Notes under the pieces: generated by a model | Database searches by the model: none | Told to the model about the DNA's origin: nothing | The model's input: only the letters and a program-made list of their open reading frames with translations | Part shown: positions 47,274 to 54,866 of the stretch, in pieces | How the letters are laid out: every line of letters begins with the position of its first letter | Position numbering within the stretch: position 1 is the first letter of the stretch | Origin: Candidatus Polarisedimenticolaceae bacterium | GTDB lineage: Bacteria; Acidobacteriota; Polarisedimenticolia; Polarisedimenticolales; DASRJG01 | Length of the DNA stretch: 64,000 nucleotides | Assembly (NCBI GenBank): GCA_036275915.1 | Contig: DASUCV010000022.1 | Coordinates: 124,001-188,000, forward strand | Direction of reading: 5' to 3' | Program-made: the position numbers and the translations under genes

Positions 47274-48323
47274 TCAAGTCCTTGCGGACAGGAACGCGGT
47301 CGATTCCGTCCCCAGTCGCCGTCCCACCGCCTCGGCGATGCGCCGCCAGGTCGGGACAGCGCCGGCGAAACACGGGAGCGTGAGGCTCTGACGGCCGTCC
47401 GAAAGCGCCCGGTCCGGATCGGGGTGGACCTCGACGAGGAGCCCGTCGCTTCCCGCCGCGATCGCGGCGCGAGCGAGCGCATCGACCAGCTCGCGCCGCC
47501 CGGCGGCGTGAGACGGGTCGACGATCACGGGAAGGTGCGAGCGCGCGCGGAGCACCGGCACCGCGCTGACGTCGAGCGTGTTGCGCGTCGCGGTCTCGAA
47601 GGTCCGGATGCCGCGCTCGCAGAGCACGACGCGCGGGTTGCCGTTCGCGACCACGTACTCCGCCGCGAGGAGCAGCTCGTCGAGCGTGCCCATGTGGGAG
47701 CGCTTGAGGAGGACCGGCCGCGGCTGGCGGCCGCATGCCGCGAGCAGGCGGAAGTTCTGCATGTTGCGCGCGCCGATCTGGAGCATGTCGGCCCAGCGCG
47801 CGACGAGCTCGACATCCTCGGTGGCGACGACTTCGCTGACCACGGGCAGGCCGGTCTCCTCGCGCGCGACGGCGAGCAGGCGGAGTGCCGTCTCGCCGAG
47901 CCCCTGAAAGCCGTAGGGCGAGGTGCGCGGCTTGAAGGCGCCGCCGCGGAGCAGGCGCGCACCCGCCGCGCGGACGCCGCGGGCCGCGGCGACGATCTGC
48001 TCCTCGGACTCGACCGAGCAAGGGCCCGCGATGACGACGACCTCGTCGCCGCCGATCGTGACCCCCGCCACTTTCACGGTCGAGGTCTCCGGGTGGTGCT
48101 CGCGGGAGACGAGCGCGTACGGCGGGACGTCGCGCCGCGTCTCGCGCACGCCGGGCCACGACGCCAGGCGCGACGCGAGATCGTCGTCGCACGGGCCGAG
48201 CACGCCGACGATCGTCTCGCCGTCGAGCGTGCCGACGCTCACGCGGTGCCCTTCGGACTCGAGGAAGCGGACGATGTCGGCCTTCTCCTTGAGCGACACG
48301 CCGCGCGCGAGGATCGCGATCAT
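47274..48323 (-). CDS. aroF: 3-deoxy-7-phosphoheptulonate (DAHP) synthase
   Basis: 349 residues. The N-terminal 80 residues are a ferredoxin-like regulatory domain ([18 protein letters not shown]) as in the Thermotoga-type AroF. The barrel has [47 protein letters not shown] and the metal-binding CERGIRTFE. It condenses phosphoenolpyruvate with erythrose-4-phosphate, the first step towards chorismate. It is the last gene of the trp operon and its ATG overlaps the trpA stop, so it falls under the same attenuator. The regulatory domain probably adds feedback by aromatic amino acids. Confidence 0.95.
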
Positions 48324-49057
48324 GCGAGGACCCCCCGGAGGAACGCCGCCGGCTCGTCGCCGCGCTCGATCGCCTCGATGAGCGCCGAGCCGACGACGAC
48401 GCCGTCGGCCGGCGGAGCGACCGCGTGGACGTCCTCGCGCGTGCGGACGCCGAACCCGGCGAGGACCGGGCACCGCGCCGCCGCGCGGACGCGGGCCAGA
48501 TAGCCCCGCGCGCCGGAGAGATCGGCATCGCCGCGCCCCGTCGTGCCGTTGATCGCGACCGCGTATACGAACCCCTCGGCTTCGGCGGCGATCGCCGCCG
48601 CGCGCTCGGGGTCGGTGGCCGGAGACACGAACGAGATCAGGGCGATCCCTCGCTCGGCGAGGGGCCCGGCGAGGAGGTCCCGCTCCTCGCGCGGAAGATC
48701 GGGGACGATCACCCCGTCGATCCCGTCGAGGCGGTCGACGCCGTGCGCGAGCAGCGGGTTCAGATAGCTCATGAGCAGGATCGGCACCGTCGCACCGCGC
48801 ACCGCCTCCAGGATCGAGGCGATCGTGACCCCTGCCTCGAGCGCCGCGCGGCTCGCGCGCTGGATCGTCACGCCGTCGGCCATCGGATCGGTGAACGGCA
48901 CGCCGATCTCGACGACGTCCGCGACGCCGGCGACCTCGTCGAGGTGCCGGCGGAAGGACTCCCGGCCCGGATAACCCGCGGTGAGGAATGCGGCGAGCGC
49001 CGGCCGTCCGGACACTTCCCGCAGCGCCGCCTCGATCCGCAAGGCTCCCGCCGTCAT
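48320..49057 (-). CDS. trpA: Tryptophan synthase alpha chain
   Basis: 245 residues, slightly shorter than the usual 265. Catalytic Glu is in [14 protein letters not shown] and catalytic Asp in [11 protein letters not shown]; the phosphate-binding loops are [10 protein letters not shown] and [10 protein letters not shown]. It cleaves indole-3-glycerol phosphate and passes indole to TrpB through the alpha2-beta2 tunnel. The start ATG overlaps the trpB stop and the stop overlaps aroF, so the three are translationally coupled. Confidence 0.96.
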
Positions 49058-50226
49058 GCGTCCAGGTCCTTGTCGCCGCGTCCCGACACACCGACCACGA
49101 GAAGCGCGCCCGGCCTCGCCGCAGCGAGGCGGCGCGCACCCGCGAGCGCGTGCGCCGACTCGAGCGCCGGCAAGACCCCTTCGAGACGGCAGCAGAGGTC
49201 GAGCGCGCCCTGCGCCTCGCGATCCCCGATCGCCTCGTAACGGACGCGCCCCGCCGCGGCGAGCGCGGCGTGCTCGGGACCGACGCCGGGGTAGTCGAGG
49301 CCCGGCGCGATCGAATGCGCATCGACGATCTGACCGAACTCGTCCTGAAGCACGAGCGAGCGGGCGCCGTGGAGCACGCCGGGCGTTCCCCTCGTGCACG
49401 TCGCGGCATGCTCGCCGGGCGCTGCGCCGCGCCCTCCGGCCTCGTAGCCGTGGAGCGCGACGCCCTCGTCGCCGAGGAACCCGTGGAAGAGCCCGATCGC
49501 GTTCGAACCGCCGCCGACGCACGCCGCCACCGCGTCCGGCAGGCGGCCGCGGGCGGCGAGGATCTGCGCGCGCGCCTCGTTCCCGATGACCGACTGGAAG
49601 GCCCGCACGAGCCACGGGTAGGGATGCGGGCCGACGACCGACCCGATGAGGTAGTAGAGGCCGTCGGGATCGCCGACCCAAGCCCTCATCGCCTCGTCGA
49701 TCGCGGCGCGCAGGGTGCGGTCGCCCGACGCGACCGGCACGAGCTCCGCGCCGAAGCGCTCGATCCGCGCCGCGTTCGCGCGTTGTCGAAGGACGTCGTC
49801 GGTACCCATGTAGACGCGGCACGGAAGCCCGGCCCGCGCGCAGGCGGCCGCGACGGCGACGCCGTGCTGGCCCGCGCCGGTCTCGGCGACGACGCGCGCG
49901 GCGCCGAGACGCCGGGCGAGGAGCACCTGCCCGACGGCGTTGTTGATCTTGTGCGCGCCGGTGTGGCAGAGATCCTCGCGCTTGAGCCAGATCTCAGCAC
50001 CGAAGGACTCGGAGAGTCGATCGGCGCGCCCGAGCGGGGTCGGCCGCCCCACCCAGTCTCGAAGCGCCGCGTCGAGGGACGCCTGGAACGCCGGATCGGC
50101 CAGCGCCGCCGTCGCCTCGCGATCGAGGCGCCGGAGCGCGGCGACGAGCGTCTCCGGAACGAACGCGCCCCCGAATTCGCCGTAACGCCCGCGCGGTCCG
50201 GGATGCGCCGGGAGCAGAACGCTCAT
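49054..50226 (-). CDS. trpB: Tryptophan synthase beta chain
   Basis: 390 residues. The PLP lysine lies in [18 protein letters not shown]; the catalytic region is [12 protein letters not shown] and the phosphate loop [10 protein letters not shown]. It condenses indole with serine to give tryptophan. It is the TrpB1 type that partners TrpA. The start ATG overlaps the trpC stop directly; the trpF gene that often sits between trpC and trpB in other operons is absent. Confidence 0.97.
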
Positions 50227-51059
50227 CCTCGCGCCTCCCGGACGAGCCGCGTCTCGCGTCCCGCGTCGATCATCGCCGCGAGCCTCGGCCCAGGATCGGG
50301 ATCGCGCATGAGCGCCGTGCCGGCGAGGACGGCGCGGCAGCCCGCCGCCGCGGCGCGCGCGGCGTCGAACGGCGTTCCCGCCCCGCTCTCGGCGACGACG
50401 ATCGCGCGCGATGCGGCCCGCGGCGCGAGGCGCTCCCACCGGCGCTCATCGACCTCGAGCGTCTCGAGGTCGCGGGCGTTGATCCCGACGAGCGCCGGAG
50501 CCTCCGCCGCCTCGGCGGCCACGACGGCACGCTCGAGCTCGGTCTCGTCGAACGCCTCGACGAGCGCGAAGAGGGAGAAGCGCCAAGCCGCGTCGAGCAT
50601 CTCGCCGAGCGCCCCGCCGGGGAGGAGGCGCACGATGAGGAGCACGCCGGCCGCTCCACGATCGCGCGCCTCGGCGACCTGGTAGGGATCGACGAGGAAG
50701 TCCTTGCGGATCACCGGGATCGTCGTGGCGAGCGCCAGGCCCTCGAGGAGGAGGAGCGACCCGCCGAACGCCGACGGCTCGGTGAGCACGGAGATCGCTG
50801 CGGCGCCGGCGCCGGCGTACCGGCGCGCTCGCGCGATGAGCGCGTCGCCGCCGCCCGGGCCGACCGGAGCGAGCGGCCCCGCCGACGGGCTCGCCGGCTT
50901 GATCTCCGCGATCACGTCGAAGCGCGGGTGAAGGCGCAGCGGCGGCGGTAGCGGGCGCAGGCTCGCGCGGCGGACGAGCTGCGATTCGCTCAAGCGCCCG
51001 CGCGCCTCGACCACGCGCGCACGGCTGCCCGCCGCCATCCGTGAGAGGAAGTCACGCAT
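50223..51059 (-). CDS. trpC: Indole-3-glycerol phosphate synthase
   Basis: 278 residues, single-function length. Barrel motifs: VIAEIKPASPSAGP with the catalytic Lys, ISVLTEPSAFGGS, PVIRKDFLVDPYQV, VGINARDLETLEVD and VAESGAG. It closes the ring of the anthranilate-derived ribulose phosphate to indole-glycerol phosphate. No phosphoribosylanthranilate isomerase domain is fused to it. The start overlaps the end of trpD by eight bases. Confidence 0.96.
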   Translation of the reverse strand: MRDFLSRMAAGSRARVVEARGRLSESQLVRRASLRPLPPPLRLHPRFDVIAEIKPASPSAGPLAPVGPGGGDALIARARRYAGAGAAAISVLTEPSAFGGSLLLLEGLALATTIPVIRKDFLVDPYQVAEARDRGAAGVLLIVRLLPGGALGEMLDAAWRFSLFALVEAFDETELERAVVAAEAAEAPALVGINARDLETLEVDERRWERLAPRAASRAIVVAESGAGTPFDAARAAAAGCRAVLAGTALMRDPDPGPRLAAMIDAGRETRLVREARG

Positions 51060-52050
51060 CGTGCCTCCATGCGGCGAGCCGCGTCAGGAGCGCGGAGGCG
51101 CTCCCGTCGTCGATCGCCGCCGCCGCGAGGGGAACCGAGTCGTCGTGGCCCGAGACCTCGAGCGCCAGCGCCGCGCCGAGGACGAGCGCGTCGCGATGCG
51201 GACCCCTCTCGCCGGAGAGCGCGCGCCGCAACGCGAGCGCATTGAACGAGGCATCGCCTCCCCGAAGATCGCCCGGAGCGCAGCGGGGAAAGCCCGCGGC
51301 GAGCGGATCGCGCTCGGTGCGCTCGATCCGGCCTGCGCTCACGTCGTAGAGGACGAACGGTCCGATCGGCGTCGGCTCGTCCCACGCCGCAGCCCCGTGC
51401 ACGACGAAGACGCGACGGAACGGCAGATCCGCCGCGACCTCGGCGATGAGACGCGCCGCCGCCGGCGTCGCGGCACCGATCAGCGCGTACGCCGGACCGG
51501 CCGGATTGCAGAGCGGACCCAGCAGGTTGAAGACGGTGCGCGTCCCGAGCGCCCGGCGCACCGGGCCGACGCCCGCGAGCGCGGGATGGAACGACGGCGC
51601 GTGGAGAAACGTGAACCCGGTCGCCTCGAAGAGCGATCGTGCGGCCGCCTCCCCGTCCGGCAGCGGCACGCCGAGCGCGGCGAGGACGTCCGCCGCGCCC
51701 GAGCGTCCCGACACCGCGCCGCTCCCGTGCTTGGCGACCGGCGCCCCGGCCGCCGCGGCGAGGAGCGCGGCGCCGGTCGAGAGGTTGAAGCTCCGCGCGT
51801 GATCGCCGCCGGTGCCGACGACGTCGACGAGATCCGCGTCGCCGAGATCGCAGCGGCTCATCGACGCTCGCATCGCCCGCGCGAGCCCGCGAAGCTCGCT
51901 GGCCGACTCCCCCTTCGTGCGAAGCGCCGCGAGGTAAGCGCCGGCGAGCGCCGCCGACGTTCCCGGGCTCGCGAGCGCGGCGAAGAGGTCGCCCGCCTCC
52001 GCCTCGTCGAGGTCGGAGGCCGCCATGAGGCGCTCGAGGATCGGGGTCAT
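51052..52050 (-). CDS. trpD: Anthranilate phosphoribosyltransferase
   Basis: 332 residues. Conserved PRPP and anthranilate sites: DVVGTGGDHARSFNLSTGAALLAAA, KHGSGAVSGRSGAADVL (only key residues matter: GTGGD and KHGS) and FNLLGPLCNPAGP. It attaches phosphoribose to anthranilate. Its ATG overlaps the trpG stop (ATGA) and its 3' end overlaps trpC by eight bases. Confidence 0.96.
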   Translation of the reverse strand: MTPILERLMAASDLDEAEAGDLFAALASPGTSAALAGAYLAALRTKGESASELRGLARAMRASMSRCDLGDADLVDVVGTGGDHARSFNLSTGAALLAAAAGAPVAKHGSGAVSGRSGAADVLAALGVPLPDGEAAARSLFEATGFTFLHAPSFHPALAGVGPVRRALGTRTVFNLLGPLCNPAGPAYALIGAATPAAARLIAEVAADLPFRRVFVVHGAAAWDEPTPIGPFVLYDVSAGRIERTERDPLAAGFPRCAPGDLRGGDASFNALALRRALSGERGPHRDALVLGAALALEVSGHDDSVPLAAAAIDDGSASALLTRLAAWRHDA

Positions 52051-52628
52051 GCGCGGCCCAGGTCGAGGAAGTTCGCGAGCAAGGTCGCCCCTTCGGGCGT
52101 CAGCACGCTCTCGGGGTGGAACTGAACCCCCTCCACCGGAAGGCTCGCATGGCGGAGGCCCATGACCTCCCCCGCCGAGGTGTACGCGCTCACGGCGAGC
52201 TCGGAGGGCAGGCCTTCCTCGGAGACGGCGAGGGAGTGATAGCGCCCTCCCGCGAACGGGTTCGCGAGCCCTTCGTAGAGGGTGCGGCCGTCGTGGTAGA
52301 CCGGCGACGCCTGTCCGTGGACCACCTCGGGGGCATGGACGACGCGTCCGCCGAACAGGAGCGCCAGCGCCTGATGCCCGAGGCAGACGCCGAGCGTCGG
52401 TACGCGAGGAACGAGCGCCTCGAGGATCGCGAGCGTGGCACCCGCCGACTCCGGCCGCCCCGGGCCGGGCGAGACGACGAGGTGCGAAGGACCGAGATCG
52501 ACCGCTTCCGCGGCACCGATCGCGTCGTTGCGACGAACGTCGACCGAGGCGCCGAGACCGAGAAACGCCTGCGCAAGGTTCCACGTGAACGAGTCGTAGT
52601 TGTCGACGATCAGAACGTGGGCGCGCAT
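52047..52628 (-). CDS. trpG: Anthranilate synthase component II (glutamine amidotransferase)
   Basis: 193 residues. Class I amidotransferase triad: nucleophilic Cys in GVCLGHQAL, His and Glu in VQFHPESVL; oxyanion region SPGPGRP and an N-terminal LIVDNYDSFTWNLAQ. It supplies ammonia to TrpE. The start lies 19 bases inside the trpE 3' end, an unusually long overlap in this operon. It could also serve as PabA for folate synthesis, as in many bacteria. Confidence 0.96.
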   Translation of the reverse strand: MRAHVLIVDNYDSFTWNLAQAFLGLGASVDVRRNDAIGAAEAVDLGPSHLVVSPGPGRPESAGATLAILEALVPRVPTLGVCLGHQALALLFGGRVVHAPEVVHGQASPVYHDGRTLYEGLANPFAGGRYHSLAVSEEGLPSELAVSAYTSAGEVMGLRHASLPVEGVQFHPESVLTPEGATLLANFLDLGRA

Positions 52629-53989
52629 GCCGCCTCCTCGAGCGAGAGCGCCGCCCGCATGATCGCGGCCTTCGCGAGGATCTCGTCGTGCTCGCGCTCC
52701 GGCACGCTCCCCGCGACGATCCCGGCACCGGCCTGGAACGAGACCTCGCCCTCGTGGAACGCGAGGGTTCGGATCGTGATCGCCTGATCGAGCGCGCCGC
52801 CGTGGCCGAAGTAGCCGACCGTGCCCGCGTAGAACCCTCGCGGCTGCGGCTCGATCGCCTCGATCAGCTCCATCGCCCGCACCTTCGGCGCGCCGGTGAC
52901 CGTCCCCGCGGGAAACGCCGAGGCGAAGAGATCGAAGGCGTCGGCGTCCGGCCGCAGGACCCCGCTCACGCCGGAGACGAGGTGCATGACGTGGCTGTAG
53001 CGCTCGACGATCCGCGACGGATCGACGCGGATCGTCCCCGGCGTCGCGACGCGCCCGAGATCGTTCCTGGCGAGATCGACGAGCATGACGTGCTCGGCCG
53101 CCTCCTTGGGATCCGCGAGCAGATCGTCCTCGAGCGTCCGGTCGGCCGCGGCCCCGGCACCGCGCGGCCGGGTCCCGGCGATCGGCCGGAGCGAGGCGAC
53201 GCGGCCCTCGAGCTTGACGAGCGCCTCGGGGGAGCTGCCCGCGAGCGAGGTGTCGCCGAACTTCAGGAAGAACGTGTACGGCGAAGGATTGACGCGGCGG
53301 AGGATCCGGTAGACCTCGAACGGATCGCCGTCGAACGGCCCGCGGAAGCACGACGAGAGGACGATCTGGAACACCTCGCCGTCGCGGATCGCGCGCTGTG
53401 CCGTGCGCACGGCGTCGAGGAACGCCGGTCGATCGACGCTCGGCACCGGCTCCGCACGCAATCCTCCGGGGCGCCTCTCGGGGATGCCGCCGTGGAGCGC
53501 GCGCACGATCTCCTTCCTGAGGGCGGCGCGCTCGGCGGCGGGCCCGGCATGACGGAGCGCGGCCCGCCGCGTGACGTGGTCGAAGACGAGAACGGAGCGC
53601 GGGGCGAGGAGGAGAGCATCCGGACCGTTCCCCGATGCGGGGAGGCGCTCGAGTCTCCTCGTCGCGCCGTAACCGATCGCGCCGACGAGCCCTCCCGCGA
53701 ACGGGAGGGCGACCGGCTCGTCGTCCACGAAGCGCGGGGCGCGAGCGAGCGCTGCGCGGAGCCGGTCGAGAAAGGCGGCGGGCGCCGGGGACGATAGCGG
53801 ATCGCTCGTCGGGGGTGTGACGAGACGGATCTCTTCGGCATCGCCGAATCCCAGGAACGAGTACCGTCCGAGACGCTCGCCGCCCTCCACGCTTTCCAAT
53901 AGAAACCGGGGACAAAGGGGGGACAGCTTCAAGAACGCCGATACCGGCGTGTCGAGATCGGCCGGAATGTCGAACGTCCTGAAGTCCAT
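52610..53989 (-). CDS. trpE: Anthranilate synthase component I
   Basis: 459 residues. Chorismate-binding core: PIAGTRPRGAG, VDLARNDLGRV, FPAGTVTGAPKVRAMELI and QAGAGIVAGSVPE. The N-terminal FLLESVEGG carries the LLES element of the tryptophan feedback site. It makes anthranilate from chorismate with ammonia from TrpG. GGAGG lies five bases before the ATG (MDFRTFDIPAD). The attenuator hairpin ends 24 bases upstream. Codons for residues 20-28 include a 12-base word shared with the dispersed palindromes of the window. Confidence 0.96.
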   Translation of the reverse strand: MDFRTFDIPADLDTPVSAFLKLSPLCPRFLLESVEGGERLGRYSFLGFGDAEEIRLVTPPTSDPLSSPAPAAFLDRLRAALARAPRFVDDEPVALPFAGGLVGAIGYGATRRLERLPASGNGPDALLLAPRSVLVFDHVTRRAALRHAGPAAERAALRKEIVRALHGGIPERRPGGLRAEPVPSVDRPAFLDAVRTAQRAIRDGEVFQIVLSSCFRGPFDGDPFEVYRILRRVNPSPYTFFLKFGDTSLAGSSPEALVKLEGRVASLRPIAGTRPRGAGAAADRTLEDDLLADPKEAAEHVMLVDLARNDLGRVATPGTIRVDPSRIVERYSHVMHLVSGVSGVLRPDADAFDLFASAFPAGTVTGAPKVRAMELIEAIEPQPRGFYAGTVGYFGHGGALDQAITIRTLAFHEGEVSFQAGAGIVAGSVPEREHDEILAKAAIMRAALSLEEAACAPTF

Positions 53990-54012: not shown

Positions 54013-54044
54013 AAAAAAGCCCACCTCCCTCGCGGGAAGTGGGC
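54013..54044 (-). terminator. trp attenuator terminator hairpin
   Basis: Read on the minus strand, an 11-bp stem (54044-54034 pairing with 54029-54019, one G-U pair) closes a GCGA tetraloop and is followed by six T residues (54018-54013). It lies between the leader peptide stop and trpE. The 3' arm contains GGGAGGTGG, also found inside the leader coding region at 54084-54092. The upstream copy can therefore capture the terminator's 5' arm and form an antiterminator. Confidence 0.9.
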
Positions 54045-54072
54045 CGGTTGGAATCGTCCTTTGAAGAAGACC

Positions 54073-54138
54073 CTAGTCCGTCGCCACCTCCCGGAGGCTC
54101 GCGTACCACCACCACGCGTAACGGATCGAGGTCGTCAT
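54073..54138 (-). CDS. trpL: trp operon leader peptide
   Basis: A 21-codon frame starting with ATG (MTTSIRYAWWWY) and ending in TAG. Codons 9-11 (54114-54106) are three consecutive TGG Trp codons. It precedes a terminator hairpin and trpE, the classic arrangement for ribosome-mediated attenuation. When Trp-tRNA is scarce the ribosome would stall on these codons and leave GGGAGGTGG (54092-54084) free to pair with the terminator's 5' arm. The Shine-Dalgarno is weak (GGTAAG). Confidence 0.88.
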   Translation of the reverse strand: MTTSIRYAWWWYASLREVATD

Positions 54139-54148
54139 CTCGCTTACC

Positions 54149-54177
54149 GTTCTACTTCGGTGATCGTGTGGGCGCAA
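54149..54177 (-). promoter_or_regulatory. Candidate trp operon promoter
   Basis: On the minus strand TTGCGC (54177-54172) and TAGAAC (54154-54149) are separated by 17 bases, the standard sigma-70 spacing, with the leader ATG 10 bases further on. The leader would therefore be very short upstream of the peptide. Both hexamers deviate from consensus, so confidence is limited. Confidence 0.35.
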
Positions 54178-54296: not shown

Positions 54297-54866
54297 CTAT
54301 TGATGCAGCAACTTGCTCAGGCTCGACGCCCTCGCCAAGATCGCCTGAACCGAGTGGGCGGAGCCGTCGGCCGAAGCAGTCTCGGTAACGACGACCGCCA
54401 CGTCGCAGATTCCATCGCGCCACACCGTGGTGCGCCGGCGCTGGCCCGTCTTGTCGTCGCCCGGCATGGGCCCGTCGCCGTCGGAGAATGGATCGCCGAA
54501 ACGGTCGTGGAGCTCCGCGCGCAGAGCGTCCGCGGTTTTCGCCGTATAGACGACCTCCCACTTCGCGAGGCCGATCGGCTCGACGACCAAGACCCCGCTG
54601 AATTTTCCCGGCTCGACGACCTGCGCCTGTCCTTCGACTTGAATCGTGGCTGAACGGACGGCGAGGATCTCATTCTGGCTCATGCCCAGGCGGTAGCCGT
54701 CGAGCGTCCACTTGGTGCAATCGATCTTGTCCGATCGCAGGACCATCCCGATCGGCGCGGGAGGAGGAGGGGCGTCGGAGCCGGCGGAGGCCAACGTCCA
54801 CACCATGACGCCCAGGACTGCGATGACCCCACGGTGGCCGCGAGCTTGTTGGTCGGCTCTTCGCAT
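54297..54866 (-). CDS. Secreted hypothetical protein
   Basis: 189 residues; N-terminal signal-like stretch GVIAVLGVMVWTLASAG followed by a Pro-rich linker (DAPPPPAPIG). The mature part has KWTLDGYRLGMSQNEILAVR, a segment like those in small secreted proteins that begin a beta-alpha repeat, and two Cys (IDCTKW, GICDVAV) that could form a disulfide. No family recognised. It is transcribed in the same direction as the trp operon, with the trp promoter region downstream of it, and is probably monocistronic. Confidence 0.65.
   Translation of the reverse strand: MRRADQQARGHRGVIAVLGVMVWTLASAGSDAPPPPAPIGMVLRSDKIDCTKWTLDGYRLGMSQNEILAVRSATIQVEGQAQVVEPGKFSGVLVVEPIGLAKWEVVYTAKTADALRAELHDRFGDPFSDGDGPMPGDDKTGQRRRTTVWRDGICDVAVVVTETASADGSAHSVQAILARASSLSKLLHQ

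Follow-up and report, generated by a model that had tools for sequence, protein, structure and literature searches.

A probable ribosome-mediated tryptophan attenuator ahead of an acidobacterial trpEGDCBA-aroF operon, and its likely kin in other phyla

The DNA analysed here is a stretch of 64,000 nucleotides (the window) from a contig of Candidatus Polarisedimenticolaceae bacterium, an organism that the original prediction, made from the letters alone, had correctly called a probable acidobacterium. Its minus strand carries a run of seven genes, trpE-G-D-C-B-A-aroF, in which neighbours overlap by 4 to 19 bases (Table 1). The gene trpF is missing from the run, and two PRAI matches are found on other contigs of the genome. 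In the window trpC and trpB overlap directly (50223-50226); relatives have enough space at this point to accommodate a gene. Given that aroF is the last of the seven overlapping genes, a switch ahead of trpE should also cover it, as had been proposed.

Table 1. Features of the trp leader region and the operon behind it (window coordinates; all on the minus strand)
Feature	Coordinates	Strand	Basis or remark
Candidate sigma70-type promoter, TTGCGC (54177-54172), 17-nt spacer, TAGAAC (54154-54149)	54149-54177	-	score 4.7
Leader peptide gene MTTSIRYAWWWYASLREVATD, 21 codons	54073-54138	-	ATG 54138-54136, stop TAG 54075-54073
Sensor: three tandem Trp codons, TGGTGGTGG, codons 9-11	54106-54114	-	sequence; also in relatives
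Candidate segment 1, pairing with about 54090-54082	54094-54103	-	predicted fold
Segment 2, GGGAGGTGG, within the leader gene	54084-54092	-	sequence, fold, covariation
Segment 3, GCCCACTTCCC, terminator 5' arm	54034-54044	-	fold, covariation
Segment 4, GGGAGGTGGGC, terminator 3' arm	54019-54029	-	fold, covariation
Terminator T6 tract, TTTTTT	54013-54018	-	sequence
trpE, anthranilate synthase component I	52610-53989	-	PF04715 + PF00425
trpG	52047-52628	-	PF00117
trpD	51052-52050	-	PF00591 + PF02885
trpC	50223-51059	-	PF00218
trpB	49054-50226	-	PF00291; named from place and sequence
trpA	48320-49057	-	PF00290
aroF-type DAHP synthase, final gene of the run	47274-48323	-	PF00793

The leader of 21 codons, the three Trp codons and the terminator with its T6 tract were all located where the original prediction had put them. 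The terminator loop between segments 3 and 4 is GCGA, and the T tract ends 23 nt from the trpE start codon (53989). Segment 3 is common to the antiterminator (2:3) and the terminator (3:4). The exact second copy of the terminator 3'-arm word that had been claimed within the leader gene is also present, as segment 2, and follows the last Trp codon at a distance of 13 nt. Three features expected of an attenuator are assembled in one place: a tandem-Trp reading frame before the first gene, an intrinsic terminator, and an antiterminator that shares an arm with it.

Several of these elements stand out from chance within the window. The word TGGTGGTGG occurs twice where 0.09 occurrences are expected, and the terminator stretch has a predicted fold of -26.7 kcal/mol (z -4.15) that was equalled in 1 of 200 shuffles. 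GGGAGGTGG has two exact copies only on both strands of the whole window, a copy number that is in itself unremarkable (two or more copies in 11 of 100 shuffles), so that it is the placing of the copies that counts. When the 3' arm is removed, the leader copy and the terminator 5' arm are predicted to pair over 10 pairs, which bears out the claim that the copy is able to pair with this arm and that the two helices exclude one another. The stability of the antiterminator fold is within chance (z -1.39, or 0.03 for a longer stretch), and the same is true of the segment 1 fold in the window (z -0.8).

The arrangement recurs in relatives of the operon. The 400 nt upstream of trpE were searched for a leader reading frame 8-45 codons long that encodes WW or WxW, followed by a terminator-like hairpin; this rule was drawn up once the same loci had been given a first, looser inspection. 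Such a combination was found at 73 of 88 close loci (TrpE of at least 430 bits, the window's own locus and two same-contig pairs included), at 2 of 22 loci with TrpE below 430 bits, in 1 of 880 shuffled upstream regions, and at 2 of 1155 control starts from these same loci, both of which are trpE itself read on the opposite strand. The control starts, here and for the promoter test below (870), were taken from long ORFs on either strand, as the first start codon of each, and spurious ORFs are among them. The combination of Trp leader and terminator exceeds chance; the 73 loci are related and so cannot be counted as independent cases. Of the 15 close loci that fail the rule, several appear by eye to be short only of the T tract. 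In 65 of the 73 loci segment 2 pairing begins 8-14 nt past the last Trp codon, and in 43 of the 73 the predicted 2:3 pairing ranks fifth or better against 100 shuffles (mean z -2.0). A 1:2 hairpin like that of E. coli is weak in relatives, with a mean z of -1.0 and a rank of five or better in 15 of 73 loci. A near-constant word, TAGCTGAGC, with no apparent role, lies between the leader stop and the terminator in L037, L041, L056, L065, L086 and other gammaproteobacterial loci.

Covariation across related genomes, which had been suggested as a check, was seen in both helices in an alignment of 33 loci chosen for diversity (A1). In the terminator helix 96.1% of cells are paired, with two-sided changes somewhere in 6 of 10 pairs; in the antiterminator helix 83.3% are paired, with such changes in 5 of 8 pairs. 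For either helix, the observed percentage paired, number of double-changed cells and covariation score were reached by 0 of 500 shuffles, which ignore relatedness, so that related sequences may exceed them without structure. Sliding the partners against one another lowers pairing to 44-57% in the terminator and to 48-66% in the antiterminator. Support for the antiterminator is the weaker of the two, because a slide of +3 (62.3% paired) keeps 4 double-changed pairs and yields 14 pair types against the 11 observed; the antiterminator's counts of changed pairs and of types are reached by 5 and 12 of 500 shuffles respectively. In the fixed register, the antiterminator column pair 35-101 is unpaired in 20 of 33 sequences; many gammaproteobacterial leaders pair there with one bulged A. 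Taken together with the 73 close loci, these changes mean that the Trp codons and hairpins are kept in relatives, and the non-conservation that the original prediction had named as its undoing did not occur.

The leader gene appears to begin almost at its promoter. In the window the candidate promoter ends 10 nt before the leader ATG, which would leave a 5' UTR of a few nucleotides if transcription starts at the usual distance. This promoter is weak by itself, since its score lies under our cut-off of 5.5 and is matched by 8 of 100 shuffles, and a stricter consensus scan returned no promoter; the scoring used approximate E. coli sigma70 -35/-10 frequencies. Across the family, 65 of 72 leaders have a -35/-10 pair scoring at least 5.5 whose end lies 6-12 nt upstream of the leader ATG (6-7 nt in 47 of them), and 3 of 870 control starts have such a promoter at 5-12 nt. 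Pseudomonadota contribute 50 of the 72 leaders and 48 of these pass; 17 of the 22 others pass as well, mostly at 9-10 nt. The window's own leader is among the seven below the cut, right in position and weak in score. Shine-Dalgarno-like words were found ahead of 6 leaders among 73, vs 24 for trpE, whose starts are approximate. Promoters this near the ATG in most of the leaders (65 of 72) make it probable that the mRNA is leaderless; with transcription starting at the usual distance it would begin at, or a few nucleotides from, the ATG, as is reported for S. meliloti trpL (PMC7298713).

Sequence and comparison show the parts in their order, with two competing helices, and show them to be conserved; they lend themselves to a familiar scheme. 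RNA polymerase would initiate just upstream of the leader ATG and be trailed by a ribosome. What such a ribosome covers would depend on footprint size, both for the stalled ribosome that would leave segment 2 free and for the one at the TAG that would mask it. When charged tRNA-Trp is scarce, the ribosome would stall at codons 9-11 and leave segment 2 free, as the 13-nt spacing and the usual footprint suggest; segment 2 would then pair with segment 3, no terminator would form, and the operon would be transcribed. When Trp is plentiful, the ribosome would reach the TAG and mask segment 2, so that segments 3 and 4 could form the terminator. Stalling, the response to Trp and the actual start site are what we infer from this layout. 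Order, spacing, conservation and the covariation of both helices support the classic trp attenuator that had been predicted, and the element can be taken with a probability of roughly 0.93 as an attenuator through which ribosomes control transcription of the trpEGDCBA-aroF operon.

Conceivably, the leader RNA has a second role in trans once it is terminated, like rnTrpL of S. meliloti and its peptide, and attenuation would be half its job. The leader family looks leaderless, as S. meliloti trpL is (PMC7298713), and one genome of the window's class has a second leader copy with no trp gene found behind it; the orphan copy is a single case, however, and may be a matter of decay or assembly, and we consider a second role of this kind unlikely. 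The orphan (L127, G018:C119, 1444-1605) comprises a Trp leader, MAEMLIATQILVTGLAAAGWWWWTRRATEVTPEGI, with segments 2-4, and no trp gene was found in the 3 kb examined; the ORF behind it runs the opposite way, and the same genome has a normal leader at trpE. In other bacteria, trp operons are governed by TRAP, by a Trp T-box or by repressors, and the leader peptide could be a relic in an operon under one of these. This is very improbable here, where TRAP (PF02081), the T-box (RF00230) and TrpR (PF01371) gave no match in a genome that is 98.36% complete, with control genomes positive, and where none of the Rfam families scored up to its gathering threshold in the window. A regulator of an unfamiliar kind may still act here. 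A same-strand ORF does end at 54297, about 160 nt before the leader, and intergenic terminators are frequent. That the hairpin merely terminates this ORF, with a Trp-rich reading frame beside it by chance, is nevertheless very improbable, given a Trp leader and terminator before trpE in 73 of 88 close loci, two competing helices that covary, and a promoter directly upstream of 65 of 72 leaders.

The attenuator belongs to an operon type with a wide distribution. Leaders of this type accompany a TrpE clade and a whole-pathway operon that occur, judged by record titles, in five phyla, a pattern that fits joint transfer of operon and switch. In the TrpE tree the window's protein groups with others in a clade that takes in 45 of the 84 rows (SH-aLRT 100, with a long stem) and holds Pseudomonadota, Actinomycetota, Planctomycetota, Myxococcota, Gemmatimonadota and Eisenbacteria, phyla being assigned from the titles of metagenome bins, together with eight genomes of the window's class, among them its own. 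The only other sampled genome of the window's family (G001) has its TrpE outside the clade, and no leader was found there. By the leader rule, a leader is present at 50 of 55 loci in Pseudomonadota, 5 of 8 in Actinomycetota, 4 of 8 in Planctomycetota, 1 of 1 in Gemmatimonadota, 0 of 2 in Myxococcota and 0 of 1 in Eisenbacteria; WWWW leaders without a T tract are found at the Eisenbacteria locus and at one Myxococcota locus. Forcing 44 sampled acidobacterial TrpE rows into a single group, with three outlying rows set aside, is rejected (AU p 0.00038). The order trpE-G-D-C-B-A is found in 61 of 78 named loci, while 16 run off the available sequence early and one (L076) has trpG elsewhere; aroF follows trpA in 12 of the 78, as in the window. 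A further locus, L098 (SMXW01000094.1), is titled Acidobacteria and its TrpE groups with an Acidimicrobiia row, perhaps because the bin is mislabelled.

The TrpE tree, the AU rejection and the shared gene order point to a history that leader and operon have in common and that departs from that of the species, on a set of loci chosen by likeness to the window's TrpE and a tree of TrpE only, built by a quick method. Since the same switch and gene set recur in distant phyla, the switch is suggested to travel with the operon. We infer passage of the two between phyla as a whole, and such a transfer, in whichever direction, is likely.

Trp leaders in Acidobacteriota are of more than one kind. A covariance model of the window-type leader (R1) matches 16 of 41 genomes of the class at E <= 0.01, with trpE behind 10 of the matches and trpB behind one; nine of the 10 trpE-linked matches are sequences from which the model was built. 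Five other class matches (G019, G034, G026, G032 and G016; E 2.1e-4 to 7.1e-3) were set aside as probably chance, the window's operon genes being absent nearby. In 396 genomes of the phylum, R1 gave 19 matches at E <= 1e-4 under strict filters, nine of them model sequences. Among the ten that are not, trpE lies near five and a TrpB-like gene near one, two are near an aroD-like gene with no trpE in the stretch examined, and two have a Cys-codon leader followed by a cysteine synthase-like gene.

A search that started from TrpE found the leader-terminator combination upstream of trpE in 49 of 97 acidobacterial loci, an unpruned count in which some may be chance (e.g. L177, with a poor leader), and in 0 of 97 on the antisense strand. 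The distance to trpE is within 352 nt for 27 of the 49 units, 1.69-1.92 kb for 13 and in between for nine. An aroD-like gene, by partial matches a type I 3-dehydroquinate dehydratase, separates leader and trpE in 15 of the 49, namely all 13 far loci and two of the nine intermediate ones. The segments of many of these units (CCTCTTCAG, CCCGACC and others) are unlike the window's CCCACTTCC, and the units may for this reason be separate inventions or strongly diverged. The idea that the attenuator is confined to the widely spread TrpE clade was dropped, given that unlike units precede other acidobacterial trpE or aroD-like genes. Trp leader-terminator units are common in Acidobacteriota, and the copy in the window belongs to the cross-phylum type of leader and operon.

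Some of the loci met along the way deserve mention for themselves. A Trp leader precedes an aroD-like 3-dehydroquinate dehydratase gene in L133, L134 and L137 (G349, G066 and G329) and in 13 further loci; trpE follows the aroD-like gene in L134 and in these 13 loci. In L130 and L136 (G334 and G327), both picked up by the trp model, the leaders MCCCPWPRSGSPAVAFVS and MAMCCCRRTWDGSPAVAFVS have, by eye, three Cys codons and are followed by a terminator and a cysteine synthase-like gene (tested for L130), which makes them a candidate cysteine attenuator in Acidobacteriota. A leader-terminator unit with a single Trp codon in its leader stands before trpB in L121 (G023:C70), and one with a WWW leader stands before a TrpB-like gene in L131 (G274:C137).

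A broader proposal, for which we would put the chances a little short of even, is that the leaderless attenuator and the whole-pathway operon form a self-contained unit that may have moved among at least five phyla, as it could do because a switch of this kind calls for RNA polymerase, ribosomes and tRNA-Trp alone and for no host regulator. In Acidobacteriota the unit would stand beside several unlike attenuators, some of them before aroD-trpE, so that attenuation would have been acquired or rebuilt repeatedly and would be one of the main forms of Trp control there. The cross-phylum family is a clean case in which to ask whether a protein-free switch moves along with its operon and functions straight away once it is in a new host. 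It also raises the question of how usual leaderless leader genes are in switches of this sort.

A recognisable unit is present at about half of the trpE loci studied in Acidobacteriota, and the Rfam trp leader model scores below its cut-off: RF00513 had no match in the window's genome, with the E. coli control positive, and its best score over 12 loci searched at E up to 1 was 25.3 bits (L077), the gathering score being 41 bits. An sRNA match in the Rfam search of these 12 loci (E up to 1) was judged to be chance. Trp attenuation in Acidobacteria or Planctomycetes was not found described in the literature searched. Older comparative studies of attenuation include that by Lopatovskaya and colleagues from 2010, cited in PMC4833913. 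The mechanism is already known; its distribution is apparently undescribed within the literature searched, and priority is uncertain. A survey from 2010 lists predicted attenuators in Acidobacteria with almost no assigned function (PMC2965389).

Three known systems invite comparison. The E. coli trpL attenuator has a short tandem-Trp leader and an antiterminator and terminator with a common arm, placed before trpE. The window has a like leader, like shared-arm helices and the same position relative to trpE as this system (Rfam RF00513, Trp_leader). Unlike in E. coli, the window's candidate promoter leaves no space for a Shine-Dalgarno site, TrpR was not found in the genome, and the operon is without trpF and has aroF at its end.

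The trpL-trpE(G) attenuator of S. meliloti (rnTrpL/peTrpL) likewise has a Trp-codon leader. Its RNA starts with the ATG and its operon is not under transcription repression (PMC7298713). Of the three trp operons of S. meliloti, trpE(G) alone is attenuated, whereas the window has a seven-gene run. C. glutamicum has leader peptides for trp, leuA, ilvBNC and aroF. Its trp leader has three consecutive Trp residues, like the window's, and its ilvBNC leader peptide is made without a ribosome binding site, according to a title cited in PMC4046766. In that source, aroF of C. glutamicum has a Phe-Tyr-Phe leader of its own, whereas aroF in the window ends a run that would be controlled by Trp.
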